A stretch of 64,000 nt of DNA, from assembly GCA_905234195.1 (NCBI GenBank), contig CAJOFR010000008.1:1-64000 (forward strand), given 5' to 3'. This DNA is from an uncultured Selenomonadaceae bacterium (GTDB lineage Bacteria > Bacillota > Negativicutes > Selenomonadales > Selenomonadaceae). The notes under the pieces are model-generated. The model did no database searches. It saw only the letters and a program-made list of their open reading frames with translations, and was not told the DNA's origin. Shown here piece by piece: positions 43,716-59,572 of the stretch (positions are counted from its first letter, which is position 1; every line of letters begins with the position of its first letter). The position numbers and the translations under genes were made by a program.

Positions 43716-43777
43716 TTGCGCGGAAAGGGAATATGTGATAAATTATCAGCGAAAAAATTTTGGAAAGGAAGTTTGTT

Positions 43778-44869
43778 TTGGCTAAAAGGAAAACCATTCC
43801 CGCGATCTCCATCATAATCCCAATGTACAACACGGAAAAATATATCAGCGAGTGTCTTGAAAGTATCCTTGCACAGACTTTTGAGAACTATGAAGTTATT
43901 GTGGTTGACGATTGTTCAACGGATAATAGCGCGGCGATTGTTGAAAGTTATATTCCAAAATTCAGAAGGGGGGGGGTAGACAGACTGAATCTGCTCAAAT
44001 TGAAAGTTAATTCAGGCGGTGCCGGCAAGCCCAGAAATAAAGGGTTGCGCTTTGCTTTGGGCGAATACGTTTTTTTCATGGACAGCGATGACTCGATGAT
44101 GCGCGACGGGTTTGAAAAACTCTACCGCGCCGCCGAAAAATATGACGCCGATGTTATCCACTGTGACAAATGCTATCAAACTGAAGATGAAAATATTCCC
44201 ACAGATAAATCTACCCTTAAAGAAAGGGTAAGGAATGCTGAAATTATTTCATCTCCCACTTATATGCCGGATGATCCGGTTGAGCGGGTGAAAAAATTTA
44301 TGGAATGTAAGTTCAGTTGGGAGCCATGGAATCATCTTATTCGTCGGACTTTGTTGATTGAAAACGACATTAAATTTTCTAACTTGAGTATTGTGGACGA
44401 TTCGCTGTTCAGTTTTTTTGTGATGTGCATGGCGGAAAAAATTATTTGTTTGCCGGAAGCTTTTTACATTTGGAGGAATAGGACGGATTCAAATAGCCGC
44501 GAAATTCTCGACGTTGCGAAAACTGTGCATCGCAGAGCCGGAGATATTTTTAAGCTGATAAACCACCTTGAAAAATTTTGTAACGAATTTGAACCTTTCA
44601 AAGAAAATATGGAATATAGATACGCGATTTTTGACTTTTTCAGAGAAGTGGGCGGGAATCCTCAAATGCTGGAGCTTTATTCAAAAATTCCTGCTCATTT
44701 GCTCGACGGGCTTGTTCGCAAAGAAATTGAACAGATTGAAGAAAAAGACGCATTGACCGCTTTTCTTTTTAGTAAAATGATCGCTCTCAACTTGGGAATT
44801 TTGCAACTTCAAGGTTATATTCAGCAAATGCAAACGCAGAATCAAAAAACTAATGAAAATATTTTTTAA
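43778..44869 (+). CDS. Family 2 glycosyltransferase with in-frame G9 tract
   Basis: The 363-residue protein has a GT-A fold: SIIIPMYNTEKYISECLESIL (part shown), VIVVDDCSTDNS and the DXD-type FMDSDDS that binds the nucleotide sugar. It lacks a transmembrane helix, so it is cytosolic or peripheral. TTG 43778, 7 nt after AAAGGAAG, matches the start of the paralogue. A run of nine G (43968-43976) encodes RRGG at ~64-67; one base gained or lost would truncate the protein. The following gene is a close paralogue. The region is more AT-rich than its neighbours. Acceptor and sugar are unknown; surface glycan synthesis is likely. Confidence 0.9.
   Translation: MAKRKTIPAISIIIPMYNTEKYISECLESILAQTFENYEVIVVDDCSTDNSAAIVESYIPKFRRGGVDRLNLLKLKVNSGGAGKPRNKGLRFALGEYVFFMDSDDSMMRDGFEKLYRAAEKYDADVIHCDKCYQTEDENIPTDKSTLKERVRNAEIISSPTYMPDDPVERVKKFMECKFSWEPWNHLIRRTLLIENDIKFSNLSIVDDSLFSFFVMCMAEKIICLPEAFYIWRNRTDSNSREILDVAKTVHRRAGDIFKLINHLEKFCNEFEPFKENMEYRYAIFDFFREVGGNPQMLELYSKIPAHLLDGLVRKEIEQIEEKDALTAFLFSKMIALNLGILQLQGYIQQMQTQNQKTNENIF
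43968..43976 (+). repeat. Poly-G tract (G9) inside the glycosyltransferase gene
   Basis: Nine consecutive G lie in frame within the catalytic domain. The paralogue has a mixed sequence at the aligned position (KFRVSGVD versus KFRRGGVD), so the tract is not required by the protein fold. Such tracts are typical slipped-strand phase-variation sites. Confidence 0.8.
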
Positions 44870-44887
44870 CGACAAGGAGAATATGTT

Positions 44888-46009
44888 TTGGCTAACAAGA
44901 AAAATATTCCTGCAGTTTCTGTTATAATCCCAATGTACAATATGGAAAAATATATCGATGAATGTCTCGACAGCGTGCTTGGACAAACTTTTGAGGACTA
45001 CGAAGTTATTGTGGTTGACGATTGCTCGACGGATAACAGCGCGGCAATTGTTGAAAGTTATATTCCTAAATTCAGAGTGAGCGGCGTGGACAGGCTCCGG
45101 CTTGTAAAATCTCCGGCAAATTCCGGCGGGCGTCCGGGTGTGCCGAGAAATGTCGGTATGAGACTTTCGCACGGGGAATATCTGATGTTCGTGGACAGCG
45201 ACGACGCAATTACAAAGAGCGCGCTCAAAGAACTTTACAAGGTTGCAAAAGATTTCGACGCCGAAGTTGTGCACTGCGAAAAATTTTTGTCGACTCAAGA
45301 CGAAACTCTTTCGGGGCATAAAGGTTTTCAAGTGATGGCAATGAAAAAAACCGATTTCGTTACGAAACCGACGCTCTTCACTGAAAATCTTGCCGAGCGC
45401 GTGAAAATTTTCAGTTCAGATAAATTTGATTGGAGCTCCTACACAAATTTTGTGCGCAGGGATTTTGTAATGCAGAATGATTTAGAATTCCCCGACTATA
45501 AAGTTTGTGAAGACTCGGTGTTTTCTCTGTACCTGTTGTGCCTGGCAAAAAATTTTGTGCTCACTCCAACTGTCCATTACGTTTATCGAGACAGGCAAGA
45601 CTCCGCGACAAAACCAAATCAATTGTCCGCCGAAGAAAGATTTCACAGATGGGGAGAGTTTTTCTTTCGCGGGATAACTCTTTTGGATAAATTCCTGGAC
45701 AGATTTGCTTTCTTCCGCGAAAATATCGCCTACAAGTACGCGATTTACGATTTGCTGATGAAAACTAACAGCGGTCCCCTCCTCGACGTTTATTCTAAAA
45801 TTCCTTCGGGGCAACTCGACAAATTAATTTCGTGGGAACTTTCAAAAGTCGAAGATAAAACGCCGCTGACGACTTTCTTTTTCAGCAGAATGAATATCTT
45901 TAATTTGAACGTCGTGCGACTTCAAGGTAGTCTTCGTCAAGAGCACTCGAAAGTTAAGCAATTAGAGGAACAGATCCAACAGCTGCAAATCCAACAACTC
46001 CAAAAATAA
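44888..46009 (+). CDS. Family 2 glycosyltransferase, paralogue of the preceding gene
   Basis: The 373-residue GT2 enzyme has VIIPMYNMEKYIDECLDSVL, VIVVDDCSTDNS and the DXD-type MFVDSDDA. A stretch around YEVIVVDDCSTDNSAAIVES is identical to the first enzyme, also nearly so in DNA, while the C-terminal halves diverge. The C-terminus ends in a Gln-rich coiled coil (KQLEEQIQQLQIQQLQ), which could mediate oligomerisation. TTG start after GGAG, 18 nt behind the first gene. A terminator follows. Confidence 0.9.
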   Translation: MANKKNIPAVSVIIPMYNMEKYIDECLDSVLGQTFEDYEVIVVDDCSTDNSAAIVESYIPKFRVSGVDRLRLVKSPANSGGRPGVPRNVGMRLSHGEYLMFVDSDDAITKSALKELYKVAKDFDAEVVHCEKFLSTQDETLSGHKGFQVMAMKKTDFVTKPTLFTENLAERVKIFSSDKFDWSSYTNFVRRDFVMQNDLEFPDYKVCEDSVFSLYLLCLAKNFVLTPTVHYVYRDRQDSATKPNQLSAEERFHRWGEFFFRGITLLDKFLDRFAFFRENIAYKYAIYDLLMKTNSGPLLDVYSKIPSGQLDKLISWELSKVEDKTPLTTFFFSRMNIFNLNVVRLQGSLRQEHSKVKQLEEQIQQLQIQQLQK

Positions 46010-53555: not shown

Positions 53556-55700
53556 GTGTTCAAAAAATTATTCGGCGCAATCAGGCGCACATTCGGCGGC
53601 AAAAAAAATATCGCCGTGCAAGTTCGCAACGAAACAGAAATTGACCGCGAAATTTCCGCGCTGTATTCAATCGTCGTCGACGCGATGGGCTCTGACAGGT
53701 TGGTTTTGCAGGCAGGGAAAATGGACGCGCTCCGCTATCTTCGTTCGAGCGACCCGGGCGAAAGAATTTTGGCGTTGCGCAGAATTTTGGAGGAGAACCC
53801 AACTTTAAATCCCCCGCCTTCAAAATCTGAAATCCCTGCGGAAATTATTCGCCTGTCCGAACTTTTGGCGGACATGATAGCGCGGCGGCAGGTCGAAGAT
53901 AAAATCGACAGGAAGGTTTCGGAAAAACTTGAGCACGATCATCAGGAATATATCAAGGATATTCGTTTGCAGATTCTGAAAGACGAAAAGCCCGATTCTG
54001 AAACTCCCTACGAGGCGAAAAAACGTGAGTACTTTGAAAAATTGGAAGAGGTCGAGCTGACTCAATCGGTCATGGAACTTTTGCGCCCGAAGTCCCTTGA
54101 GGATATTGTCGGGCAGGAGCGCGCCGTTAAATCTCTGCGCGCGAAACTTGCGTCACCGTATCCGCAACATTTAATTTTGTACGGACCGCCCGGCGTCGGG
54201 AAAACTACGGCGGCGCGGCTTGTGCTTGAGTCGGTAAAAACTTTGGCGACAAGCCCGTTTGATTCGGACGCGCCTTTTGTGGAGACGGACGGCACAACTT
54301 TACGCTGGGATCCGCGCGACATGACTAATCCCTTGCTCGGCTCCGTCCACGACCCGATTTATCAGGGCGCGCAGAAATCTCTTGCCGAAAGCGGTGTCCC
54401 CGAACCAAAACCCGGTCTTGTCACCGACGCGCACGGCGGAATTTTATTTATCGACGAGATTGGCGAAATGGATATTATGTTGCAAAATAAGTTGCTGAAG
54501 GTTTTGGAGGACAAGCGCGCGTTTTTTGAGTCCGCCTACTACGATCCGAGTGACGAGCGCGTCCCGCCGTATGTCAAGATGCTTTTCGAGAACGGCGCGC
54601 CGGCGGATTTCGTTTTGATTGGAGCGACGACCCGCGATTCAAGTTCGATAAACCCTGCGTTGCGTTCGCGCTGTGCTGAAATTTATTTTGAGCCGCTGAC
54701 TCCCGCGCACATTATCGAGATTGTGAAGAACGCCGCCGAAAAATTGGACGTCGACCTTGAAGAGGGCGTCCCCGAAATTATCAGCGAATACACAATCGAA
54801 GGGCGCAAGGCGATTAATATTTTGGCCGATGCTTACAGTCTCGCGTTGCAGGACGAAGAAAACGAAATTCAGCACGAAGACGGCAAGCCCTATAATCCCG
54901 ACGATTTTCCGCGCGAAAAAATTAAAAAGCAACACATTTACGAAGTCGCGCAGGTCAGCAGGCTCTTTCAGTACGTCACGAAGAAGGCTTCGGCGAAACC
55001 GGCAGTCGGTCATATTTTCGGGCTGGGCGTTAGCGGCTTTATCGGCTCGGTTATCGAAATTGAGGCGGTTGTTTTTCCGGCGGCGGAAAAGGGAAAAGGC
55101 ACGATTCGTTTTAACGAAACTGCCGGCTCTATGGCGAAAGATTCCGTGTTTAATGCGGCGTCGGTCTTGCGGCGCGTGACAGGCAAAGATATTCACGATT
55201 ACGACGTACACATAAACGTTATCGGCGGCGGGAATATCGACGGACCCAGCGCGGGCACGGCTATCTTGTCAGTTTTAATCAGCGCGGTTACCGGAAAAAA
55301 GATTCGTCAAGATGTCGCGGTTACCGGCGAAATTTCCATTCAAGGCAGAGTTCGTCCGGTAGGCGGTGTTTTTGAGAAGGCTTACGGCGCGAAACAGGCG
55401 GGCATTAAATCTCTTGTTATCCCGAAGGAAAATTCCAAAGACATTCCGCGTTGGCATCTCGGCTTGAAAATTCATCCGGTGGAGACGGCGGAAGAGGCTT
55501 TCAAGTGGATTTTTGAAGAGGAGATAAATTTTGTCGAAGACGAAGTAAAAAAAGAGGAACCCGCGCCAAAACGCAAGAGGGCTCCGAAAAAAATTCAGCT
55601 CGAAAAAAAATCTTCGGACGCCGCCGAAAAAATTATCGAGGACATTGCCTCGACTACGGTCAGCTCCGAAGAACTACAAATGCTTATCGACAAGGAGTAA
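53556..55700 (+). CDS. LonB/LonC-type ATP-dependent protease
   Basis: The 714-residue AAA+ serine protease has a coiled-coil N-terminal region in place of the LonA substrate domain. An AAA+ module follows (Walker A YGPPGVGKTTA ~212, Walker B GGILFIDEIGEMD ~295, arginine-finger region INPALRSRC). The C-terminal Lon protease domain has the catalytic Ser565 in GPSAGTA and Lys608 in FEKAYGA, 43 residues apart as in E. coli Lon. An insertion in the AAA+ domain suggests the LonB/LonC branch. The tail is Lys/Glu-rich. Start is GTG with GAGG upstream, 3 nt behind rplI. Confidence 0.93.
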   Translation: MFKKLFGAIRRTFGGKKNIAVQVRNETEIDREISALYSIVVDAMGSDRLVLQAGKMDALRYLRSSDPGERILALRRILEENPTLNPPPSKSEIPAEIIRLSELLADMIARRQVEDKIDRKVSEKLEHDHQEYIKDIRLQILKDEKPDSETPYEAKKREYFEKLEEVELTQSVMELLRPKSLEDIVGQERAVKSLRAKLASPYPQHLILYGPPGVGKTTAARLVLESVKTLATSPFDSDAPFVETDGTTLRWDPRDMTNPLLGSVHDPIYQGAQKSLAESGVPEPKPGLVTDAHGGILFIDEIGEMDIMLQNKLLKVLEDKRAFFESAYYDPSDERVPPYVKMLFENGAPADFVLIGATTRDSSSINPALRSRCAEIYFEPLTPAHIIEIVKNAAEKLDVDLEEGVPEIISEYTIEGRKAINILADAYSLALQDEENEIQHEDGKPYNPDDFPREKIKKQHIYEVAQVSRLFQYVTKKASAKPAVGHIFGLGVSGFIGSVIEIEAVVFPAAEKGKGTIRFNETAGSMAKDSVFNAASVLRRVTGKDIHDYDVHINVIGGGNIDGPSAGTAILSVLISAVTGKKIRQDVAVTGEISIQGRVRPVGGVFEKAYGAKQAGIKSLVIPKENSKDIPRWHLGLKIHPVETAEEAFKWIFEEEINFVEDEVKKEEPAPKRKRAPKKIQLEKKSSDAAEKIIEDIASTTVSSEELQMLIDKE

Positions 55701-55758: not shown

Positions 55759-56427
55759 TCAATGATGGTGGGAGATTTCGGTGCCGCGAATGGCTTTAAT
55801 CGCTGCCGCAACATCTTCCGCGCCGTAAATCGCAGAACCCGCAACCAAAACATTCGCGCCCGCCTCACGAACAAGCACGGAAGTTTCAGCGTTAATCCCG
55901 CCGTCAACTTCGATATCGCATTCGGTTTCCATTTCTTCAATCATGTGATAAAGCATGTGAATTTTACCGAGCATGGACTCGATAAATTTTTGCCCGCCGT
56001 AGCCGGGATTGACGGTCATTATCAAAACCATTTCTACATCTTCGATAAGCTCTTCGACCATAGAAAGAGAAGTGCCCGGATTTATGGCGACGCCCGCCTT
56101 GCAACCGCACTCGTGTATTTGCTGAATGACGCGGTGAGCATGGCGCGCGGCCTCCGCGTGAAAAGTGATAATGTCGGCTCCGGCGTCGGCAAAACTTTTT
56201 ATTTGAGTTTCGGGGTGCTCCGTCATCAAGTGCACGTCAAAAACGGCGTCGGAAAATTTTCTGAGACACTTCACCACAGGAGAACCGAGAGTGATATTCG
56301 GCACAAAAGTCCCGTCCATGACGTCAATGTGAATGTATTCAGCTCCGGCGTCGGTGACTTTTTTTATCTCGTCCGCCAAATGAGCAAAGTCCGCCGACAA
56401 AATCGACGGCGCAATAATCGTTGCCAT
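55759..56427 (-). CDS. rpe: Ribulose-phosphate 3-epimerase
   Basis: The 222-residue TIM-barrel enzyme interconverts ribulose 5-phosphate and xylulose 5-phosphate. Metal and catalytic residues are in IHIDVMDGTFVPNIT (~34), FDVHLMTEHPE (~64), VNPGYGGQKFIESM (~139) and EVDGGINAET (~173). The ATG at 56427 follows GGAGG closely. The last three residues are His, a small oddity. It diverges from the tyrosine phosphatase gene. Confidence 0.96.
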   Translation of the reverse strand: MATIIAPSILSADFAHLADEIKKVTDAGAEYIHIDVMDGTFVPNITLGSPVVKCLRKFSDAVFDVHLMTEHPETQIKSFADAGADIITFHAEAARHAHRVIQQIHECGCKAGVAINPGTSLSMVEELIEDVEMVLIMTVNPGYGGQKFIESMLGKIHMLYHMIEEMETECDIEVDGGINAETSVLVREAGANVLVAGSAIYGAEDVAAAIKAIRGTEISHHH

Positions 56428-56524
56428 GAAAAAAATTCCTCCTCGAATAATTCTCCTTGAAGTTTATGACATTTGCCGAAAGTTGTCAACGCAAAAAATT
56501 TTTTATGGAAGGAAGGCGCGTAAT

Positions 56525-56932
56525 TTGAAAATAAATTTTGTTTGCTGGGGAAATATTTGCCGCTCGCCTATGGCTGAATTTGTCATGAAACGTTTGATTG
56601 ACGAGGCGGGCTTGTCCGAAAAAATTTTTGTTGCGTCTTCGGGCTGTCATGCGTCCGTCGGCACGCCTATCGCCGGCGGCACCTGCCACGAACTCAAAAA
56701 GCACAACATCCCTTTTAATTATCGCACGTCGAAACAACTTGAGCGGGCGGACTACAAAAATTTTGATTACATTATCGGAATGGACGCCGGCAACGTTCGC
56801 GACATAAAAAAAATTTTCGGGGGCGACCCCGATAAAAAAGTTTTCTTGATGATGAATTTTGTCGGCGAAAACCGCGACGTCGACGACCCGTATATTACCG
56901 ACGACTACGCGACGACTTTTGCGGACGTCTGA
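56525..56932 (+). pseudogene. Low-molecular-weight protein tyrosine phosphatase, cut by an in-frame TGA
   Basis: The active-site loop VCWGNICRSPMAEF gives the C-x5-R-S signature of the family, and DVDDPYITDD is the catalytic Asp-Pro region. TTG 56525, 8 nt after GGAAGG, is the likely start. The frame stops at TGA (56930-56932) after 135 residues. Reading on in frame gives RGCNALLKILK and a second TGA at 56968, which matches the conserved C-terminal helix of these enzymes (GC.aLl..l). The gene is therefore probably a recent nonsense mutant, a sequencing error, or recoded. The truncated product still holds the catalytic loop and may keep activity. Partners are unknown; relatives often control exopolysaccharide kinases. 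Confidence 0.75.
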
Positions 56933-56968
56933 CGCGGCTGCAACGCCCTGTTAAAAATTTTGAAGTGA
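56933..56968 (+). other. In-frame continuation of the phosphatase C-terminus beyond TGA
   Basis: Eleven further sense codons (RGCNALLKILK) lie in the same frame before the next stop. They fit the last helix of the family, which supports premature termination upstream. Confidence 0.55.
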
Positions 56969-56978
56969 TTATTTTTTT

Positions 56979-57001
56979 TCTAATCCCTAAGCTCTAACAA
57001 G
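56979..57001. repeat. Heptad-type repeat at the copA 3' end
   Basis: On the minus strand the copA end and downstream bases read TTAGAGC, TTAGGGA, TTAGAAA; the copA stop codon lies inside. This parallels the tlyA 3' end. Confidence 0.4.
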
Positions 57002-59572
57002 TTCGTAACCGGCGTCGTCAATGACCTTCGCAAAATCGTCAAGGGAAATTTCTTTCGTCGAAGTAATCGCCGCGCTGTTGTTTTCAAGGCTGACTTCGAC
57101 GTCGGTGACGCCGTCCATTTTCGCAAGCGCGTCGTGAACGTGTTTAACGCAGTGTTTGCACATCATGCCATCGATTTTCAGATTAGTTTTCAAATTTGTT
57201 ACCTCCTCAAAATTTATCGCGTCGAGATTTTCAATTTTGACCTGCGCGGAAATTTTTTGAGCCGTCGAATTTTCAGCGCGTTCGACCTTGAAAAATTTCA
57301 ACCTAAGCGCATTCAAAACGACACACACACTTGACATACTCATAGCCGCCGCGCCAATCATCGGCGAAAGTTTCCAGCCGAACGCCGGATAAAAAACGCC
57401 CGCCGCCAACGGAATGCAAACGACGTTGTAGAAAAACGCCCAAAATAAATTTTCCTTGATATTTTTCATGACCGCCTTGCTCAACCGAATCGCGCTGACC
57501 GCGTCCAACAAATCATTGCGAACAAGAACGGCGTCCGCGCTTTCAATCGCAACATCTGTGCCCGCGCCAATCGCCATGCCCAAATCAGCCTTTACGAGAG
57601 CCGGCGCGTCGTTTATCCCGTCGCCGATCATCGCAACTTTTTTTCCGGCGGCTTGCAGTTTAGAAATTTCGTCCGCCTTGCCTTCGGGCAGAACTTCCGC
57701 GACAAAATTTTCAATCCCGATTTTTTCGGCAATATTTTTCGCCGCACCGCTATTATCCCCCGTCAACATGACGACGTCAATACCCAAATGCTTAAAATTT
57801 TCGACGGCGACGACGGAATTTTTTTTCTCGACGTCAGCGGCGGCGATAATCCCCAAAATTTTTTTATCGCTTGCAAAAATGATCGGCGTCTTACCTTCGT
57901 CCGCAAGGGAAATAATTTTTTCGTGAACCGCGTCGAGATTGAAACCCAGCTCCGCCAAAAATTTTTCGTTCCCTCCGTAATAATTCACGCCGGAAATTTC
58001 CGCCTTGACGCCCCTGCCGAAAATCGCCGCGAAATTTTTCATCTCCTGCGGCGAAATTTTTTTGTCTTCGGCGAATTTAACAACGGCTTCGGCTAAAGGG
58101 TGTTCGCTTTTTGTTTCGAGACCGGCGGCAATTTTTATCAGCTCCTGCGCGTCGCCGCCGAAAGTCACCACGTCCGTGACGAAAGGTTTGCCCTCAGTAA
58201 GCGTGCCCGTTTTGTCGACGACGACCGTGTTAATTTCGTGCGCCGTCTCCAGAGCCTCGCCGGACTTAATCAAAATTCCATGTTCCGCGCCCTTGCCCGT
58301 GCCAACCATAATCGCAACCGGCGTGGCAAGCCCCAGCGCGCAGGGACAACTTATCACGAGAATAGAAATCGAAATCGAGAAAGCAAACTCAATCGTCGCG
58401 CCGCTAATCAGCCAAAAAATTCCCGCCGCAACCGAAATAAAAATCACCGCCGGCACAAAAATCCCCGCGATTTTATCGGCAGTCTTGGCAATCGGAGCCT
58501 TGCTCGCGCTCGCCTCCTCGACGAGAGAAATAATTTTGCTGATTGTCGTATCGCCGCCGACTTTTTCCGCGCGAAACTTCAGAAAGCCGCTCTTGTTAAT
58601 CGTTCCACTCGTGACTTTGTCGCCGACAGTTTTGTTGACGGGAAGACTCTCGCCGGTTATCGCGGACTCGTCGACGGAAGTTTCACCCTCGATAACAATT
58701 CCGTCCGCCGCAAAACTTTCGCCCGGTCGAATCAAAATTTCATCGCCGATAATCAATTCTTCGACGGGGATATTAATTTCGACACCGCCGCGCAAAACGT
58801 TCGCGGTTTTCGGCGCAAGATTAATCAGAGACTCAACGGCTTTGGTAGTGCTGCCCTTCGCGCGCGCCTCGAAAAATTTCCCGACGGTGATTAAAGTTAC
58901 AATCATGCCCGCCGATTCAAAATAGAGGTTGCGGCTGTATTCGTCGACAACATAAAAATCGCCATGCCCCAGCCCCTGCCCGATTCTGATTAGCGCGAAC
59001 GCCCCGAACGCCGCCGCCGCCATTGAGCCGAGACCAACCAAGCTGTCCATGTTCGGCGCGCCGCGAAAAAGATTTTTAAAGCCGTTGACGTAATATTTTC
59101 GGTTGAGGTACATAATCGGCAGGACAAGCAAAAACTGTACGAAAGCGAACGTCACGGAATTTTCGCGCCCGTCAAAAATTTCAGCGACGATTTTTGGAAC
59201 GGGCAGCCCGAAAATTTCCGCGAACATCGAATGCATCGCAATGTAAATCGTCGGTATCAAAAAAAATATCGACCACGCGAGCCGAGTTTTCATTTCGGAA
59301 ATCTCAACGTCGATCGTCCGCGTAGCCGAATTTTTTTGAGCAGAAGTTTTTTGAGCCGGAGAATTTTTCAGCGACGCGCCATAGCCCGCGTTTATGACGG
59401 CGTCAATAATTTTTTCGCTTGAGATACTTGCGTCGTGTTTAACCTGCATGCTGTTAGTCAAAAGGTTGACGCTGACATTATCCGCGCCGACAATTTTCGC
59501 GACGGCTTTTTCCACGCGCGCACTGCACGCCGAGCAACTCATTCCGGTTACATTATAAATTTCCTTCGTCAA
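56987..59572 (-). CDS. copA: Copper-translocating P1B-type ATPase with HMA domains at both ends
   Basis: The 861-residue inner-membrane pump exports Cu(I). The N-terminal metal-binding domain has GMSCSACSARVEKAV (MxCxxC, ~10). The core has the membrane CPC in ISCPCALGLATP, phosphorylation site DKTGTLTEG, the nucleotide-domain SEHPLAEAV and hinge MIGDGINDAPAL. After the last helices a ~60-residue linker leads to a second MxCxxC domain at the C-terminus (GMMCKHCVKHVHDALAKM, ~790-861), like a fused CopZ chaperone. Start is TTG with a weak ribosome site. The last codons lie in a heptad repeat. No copper regulator such as CsoR or CopY is nearby. Confidence 0.95.
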   Translation of the reverse strand: MTKEIYNVTGMSCSACSARVEKAVAKIVGADNVSVNLLTNSMQVKHDASISSEKIIDAVINAGYGASLKNSPAQKTSAQKNSATRTIDVEISEMKTRLAWSIFFLIPTIYIAMHSMFAEIFGLPVPKIVAEIFDGRENSVTFAFVQFLLVLPIMYLNRKYYVNGFKNLFRGAPNMDSLVGLGSMAAAAFGAFALIRIGQGLGHGDFYVVDEYSRNLYFESAGMIVTLITVGKFFEARAKGSTTKAVESLINLAPKTANVLRGGVEINIPVEELIIGDEILIRPGESFAADGIVIEGETSVDESAITGESLPVNKTVGDKVTSGTINKSGFLKFRAEKVGGDTTISKIISLVEEASASKAPIAKTADKIAGIFVPAVIFISVAAGIFWLISGATIEFAFSISISILVISCPCALGLATPVAIMVGTGKGAEHGILIKSGEALETAHEINTVVVDKTGTLTEGKPFVTDVVTFGGDAQELIKIAAGLETKSEHPLAEAVVKFAEDKKISPQEMKNFAAIFGRGVKAEISGVNYYGGNEKFLAELGFNLDAVHEKIISLADEGKTPIIFASDKKILGIIAAADVEKKNSVVAVENFKHLGIDVVMLTGDNSGAAKNIAEKIGIENFVAEVLPEGKADEISKLQAAGKKVAMIGDGINDAPALVKADLGMAIGAGTDVAIESADAVLVRNDLLDAVSAIRLSKAVMKNIKENLFWAFFYNVVCIPLAAGVFYPAFGWKLSPMIGAAAMSMSSVCVVLNALRLKFFKVERAENSTAQKISAQVKIENLDAINFEEVTNLKTNLKIDGMMCKHCVKHVHDALAKMDGVTDVEVSLENNSAAITSTKEISLDDFAKVIDDAGYELVRA

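Follow-up and report, generated by a model that had tools for sequence, protein, structure and literature searches.

The DNA analysed here, a window of 64,000 nucleotides, carries on its forward strand a gene of the low-molecular-weight tyrosine phosphatase (LMW-PTP) family whose reading frame is interrupted by an in-frame TGA (Table 1). The gene is flanked by an intact, divergent gene for ribulose-phosphate 3-epimerase (rpe) and by a convergent gene for a copper-type P-type ATPase. The second HMA domain of this ATPase is CopZ-like and is fused C-terminally, after the ATPase core.

In the list of open reading frames, the phosphatase extends from an ATG at 56426 to 56932 and comprises 168 aa, but this ATG falls within the beginning of rpe, the divergent neighbour. 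The homologous start is a TTG at 56525, preceded by the purine-rich stretch AAGGAAGG, and the sequence suggests that the product is likely 135 aa long. The open frame ends in ...DVDDPYITDDYATTFADV, directly followed by the TGA at 56930-56932. Over a longer stretch, the frame reads ...NRDVDDPYITDDYATTFADV, the TGA, RGCNALLKILK and a second TGA at 56963-56965. A preliminary description had reported this same succession of stop, tail and second stop, and the sequence bears it out. The position it gave for the first TGA is exact, while the end of its interval (56930-56968) lies three bases beyond the second stop. A frameshift in place of a nonsense change is ruled out, as the frame is collinear without an indel.

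Table 1. Position and strand of features at the phosphatase locus, numbered from the first letter of the window.
Feature	Position	Strand	Basis
Ribulose-phosphate 3-epimerase (rpe), intact, divergent neighbour	55759..56427	-	TIGR01163 293 bits
Putative purine-rich RBS-like stretch, upstream of the TTG start	56509..56516	+	inferred from reading the sequence
Truncated LMW-PTP gene, 135 aa, TTG start, P-loop C7-WGNIC-R13, DPY motif	56525..56932	+	PF01451 E=3e-32, profile 1-126/144; open reading frame; invariant C7, R13, S14, D121, P122 (alignment)
In-frame TGA, next base C; orthologue column L/I/S	56930..56932	+	
Detached tail RGCNALLKILK and second TGA (56963-56965); second half of the C-terminal helix	56933..56965	+	profile score; conserved tail Cys and LL in orthologues; helix 128-146 in the model
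Copper-type P-type ATPase, N- and C-terminal HMA domains, convergent neighbour	56987..59572	-	TIGR01511 578 bits, PF00403 x2

The family assignment is clear. The 135-aa form matches PF01451 (LMWPc) with 112.2 bits against a curated cut-off of 23.2; it covers positions 1-126 of the 144 in the profile, and with the TGA translated as X the match extends over the full 1-144. The C-X5-R-S phosphate-binding loop (C7 WGNIC R13 S14) is invariant in the alignment save for the variable W8, and so is the DP general-acid motif near the C-terminus (D121-P122). The catalytic residues C7, R13 and D121 are kept in the truncated gene. The structurally solved LMW-PTPs SP-PTP of S. pyogenes (5got), YfkJ of B. 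subtilis (4etm) and PtpA of S. aureus (3rof) have the same fold and share with the window gene the CWGNICR P-loop and the DPY general-acid motif, but their C-terminal helix is matched only when the TGA is read through. Unlike in these proteins, the open frame of the window gene ends inside that helix, 11 residues before the next stop. The window gene is thus a truncated copy of an LMW-PTP family gene rather than a demonstrated working member of the family. A literature search on C-terminal truncation of LMW-PTPs returned nothing relevant.

The read-through form was modelled with AlphaFold2 from eight sequences; the model has a mean pLDDT of 95.9 and a pTM of 0.91, and its fold matches the LMW-PTPs 5got and 4etm with a TM-score of up to 0.95. 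The last helix spans residues 128-146 and is complete only if the UGA is read through. The stop at codon 136 leaves the first eight of its 19 residues, so that over half of the helix is lost. The preliminary description had the phosphatase cut before its last helix; the truncation stands, and its place in the model is within the helix rather than in front of it. On the basis of the model, the 135-residue protein would be expected to fold poorly or to be inactive.

The host, an uncultured rumen-type member of the Selenomonadaceae, is represented by a draft genome of 2.09 Mb that is 88% complete and split into 47 contigs. Its nearest named relatives are metagenome-assembled genomes of uncultured Selenomonadaceae, mostly from ruminants. 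No genome of the same species was present among the relatives obtained from a scan of the genome's contigs. LMW-PTP matches occur in 62 of the 66 genomes of the genus. Roughly 50 of the other matches (53-76% identity) reach query residues 143-146 without a stop at the TGA position, and the only internal stop in these genomes is that in the window's own match. Close homologues that also end here would have marked the short form as the normal protein, as the preliminary description pointed out; none does. Among the 30 closest aligned orthologues, the TGA column holds Leu (18), Ile (6) or Ser (6), and the flanking columns are conserved, with Y at -4 and an invariant Cys at +3. Both Leu and Ser can be encoded by triplets that differ from TGA at a single position, which makes the single-base change that had been suggested plausible. 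The ancestral codon itself is not fixed, as the nearest relatives carry ATT, TCC or TCG. The host genome also encodes a second, intact LMW-PTP of 146 aa (G000:C12:31124-31543). This paralogue is 44% identical and may buffer the loss, lowering the cost of the truncation.

How well the detached tail is preserved was assessed with a profile of its ten columns, built from the 30 closest orthologues with the window gene left out. RGCNALLKIL scores 20.9 bits, the top value among the 91,155 stop-free ten-residue windows in the six frames of the 64-kb sequence; the runner-up reaches 12.4 bits and the tails of the orthologues themselves score 18-32 bits. The tail is thus a preserved part of the gene and not random sequence behind a stop, and it does match the conserved C-terminal helix, as the preliminary description had recognised. 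The conserved pattern of G, C, A, L and L is kept after the TGA.

The nearest relatives in the tree are G033, G048 and G027, among which the tree does not fix the exact placement of the window gene, and the terminal branch leading to the latter measures ~0.26 changes per site. Since the tail is intact despite this branch length, the stop is taken to be young. Either it arose long after the lineage had diverged from the closest relative sampled, or it is not real. Upstream of the stop, pN is 0.14 and pS 0.57 in the comparison with G033, pointing to strong, ordinary purifying selection on this part of the gene. A single Tyr that is otherwise invariant is replaced by Phe, a mild change. This private substitution might indicate that constraint was lost earlier and would then speak against a recent stop. 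Relaxed constraint does not emerge from the otherwise invariant columns, however, where the window gene has only this one private change, the same number as five intact orthologues.

We consider it probable that the TGA is a recent nonsense substitution, specific to the lineage or strain, in an otherwise normal LMW-PTP gene. As expected of such a variant, the stop is absent in orthologues and the tail has not decayed. Translation would then end at codon 136, yielding a 135-residue product with the whole active site and the first eight residues of the C-terminal helix. Through poor folding or inactivity of this product, the gene would be a pseudogene of recent origin or a hypomorphic polymorphism. 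Demonstrated in this proposal are the TGA itself, the lack of such a stop in relatives, a tail without decay, the position of the helix in the model and the lack of known UGA-decoding machinery in the host genome (88% complete); we infer that the TGA base is real in the organism and that the protein has lost stability or function. A similar pattern has been described for in-frame nonsense polymorphisms in bacterial genes, where a lone stop is accompanied by purifying selection elsewhere and no decay around it (Belinky et al. 2021, PMC7918605). In contrast to those polymorphisms, the stop in the window is known from one genome only.

The main rival is an error of assembly or consensus; the preliminary description had likewise offered sequencing error as an alternative. 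In this scenario the organism has an intact gene, and the TGA is a mistake or a minority strain variant that entered a metagenome consensus. A consensus error in an 88%-complete draft of 47 contigs would yield the same pattern, and the named relatives of the host are themselves metagenome-assembled genomes. A tail without any decay is also what would be expected if the stop did not exist, and among the genes that can be compared with the fetched relatives, the TGA is the sole in-frame break of a coding frame in the window. The site nevertheless lies well within its contig of 73.9 kb, and the comparable genes nearby showed neither further frame breaks nor clusters of errors. Contigs of this kind seldom contain single-base errors. 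We rate an artefact as unlikely, though it deserves serious consideration.

The third scenario is functional readthrough, in which near-cognate decoding of UGA-C would supply a low level of full-length phosphatase and selection would keep the tail. Among the stop codons of bacteria, UGA leaks most. In yeast, readthrough of UGA increases when the next base is C, and ribosome slippage at UGA-C has been noted (PMC5289835). Some leakage is therefore possible without being functional. The intact tail would fit this scenario, but no relative in the 66 genomes of the genus shares the stop, and TGAC terminates other open reading frames of the window as well. TGA terminates 22 of 47 non-overlapping long open reading frames, four of them, including the phosphatase gene, with C as the next base; these counts are approximate, as the set was picked mechanically and includes some antisense non-genes. 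The RF2 gene prfB is present (534 bits). The host genome (88% complete) yielded no match for SelA, only GTPase matches below the cut-off for SelB (best 197 bits against 242), a tRNA-Ser with anticodon UGA as the best match for tRNA-Sec, and no UCA anticodon among 45 tRNA genes (matches read with ARAGORN). At this completeness these absences carry moderate weight. Selenocysteine insertion is rejected on these grounds and because the orthologue column holds L, I or S and not Cys. A reassignment of UGA (code 4 or 25) is incompatible with the use of TGA as a stop, the presence of prfB and the lack of a UCA anticodon, and no suppressor tRNA occurs among the 45 matched tRNA genes. PMC13092985 provides the lead that a tRNA-Trp with a four-base-pair anticodon stem can read UGA; the stem of the host tRNA-Trp has 5 bp (ACGGT/ACCGT, by eye), which sets this candidate aside. 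The RNA behind the UGA folds better than shuffled sequences by a single standard deviation (z -1.0), which is nothing special, and a structured readthrough element 3' of the stop was rejected accordingly.

The preliminary description had offered UGA readthrough as an alternative; readthrough by dedicated machinery is disfavoured, and functional readthrough is without positive evidence and appears improbable. We regard as very improbable a variant in which the UGA-C is a functional leaky stop and the phosphatase is made both in a short version and, at a low level, in a full-length version with a complete helix, which would tune its dose. It is close to inconceivable that this lineage normally uses the short form as its functional protein: the catalytic motifs C-X5-R and DPY all lie upstream of the stop, but no orthologue terminates at this position, the predicted helix is severed in mid-length and the tail is still conserved.

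The stop most likely reflects a commonplace mutation of recent date, or else a fault of the assembly, and not a new mechanism of decoding. Its relevance is mainly one of annotation, as an automatic pipeline would report a phosphatase of 135-168 aa where there is probably a newly arisen pseudogene or an error in the assembly. The locus also provides a clean case in which a recent nonsense variant can be separated from recoding by comparing orthologues, assessing how well the tail is conserved and surveying the decoding machinery.

Two other loci in the window deserve mention. At 43742-46009 (+), two open reading frames of family-2 glycosyltransferases lie end to end in one frame, with a single TAA (44867-44869) between them, and a 598-aa open reading frame of a relative aligns weakly (31% identity) across this TAA. 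Both have their own Glycos_transf_2 domain and therefore likely represent two tandem genes. Directly 3' of the gene for ribosomal protein L9, a LonC-type protease of the Lon family is encoded at 53556-55700 (+). It matches TIGR02903 (spore_lon_C) with 941 bits; this family takes its name from spore formers and is found here in a Selenomonadaceae genome.
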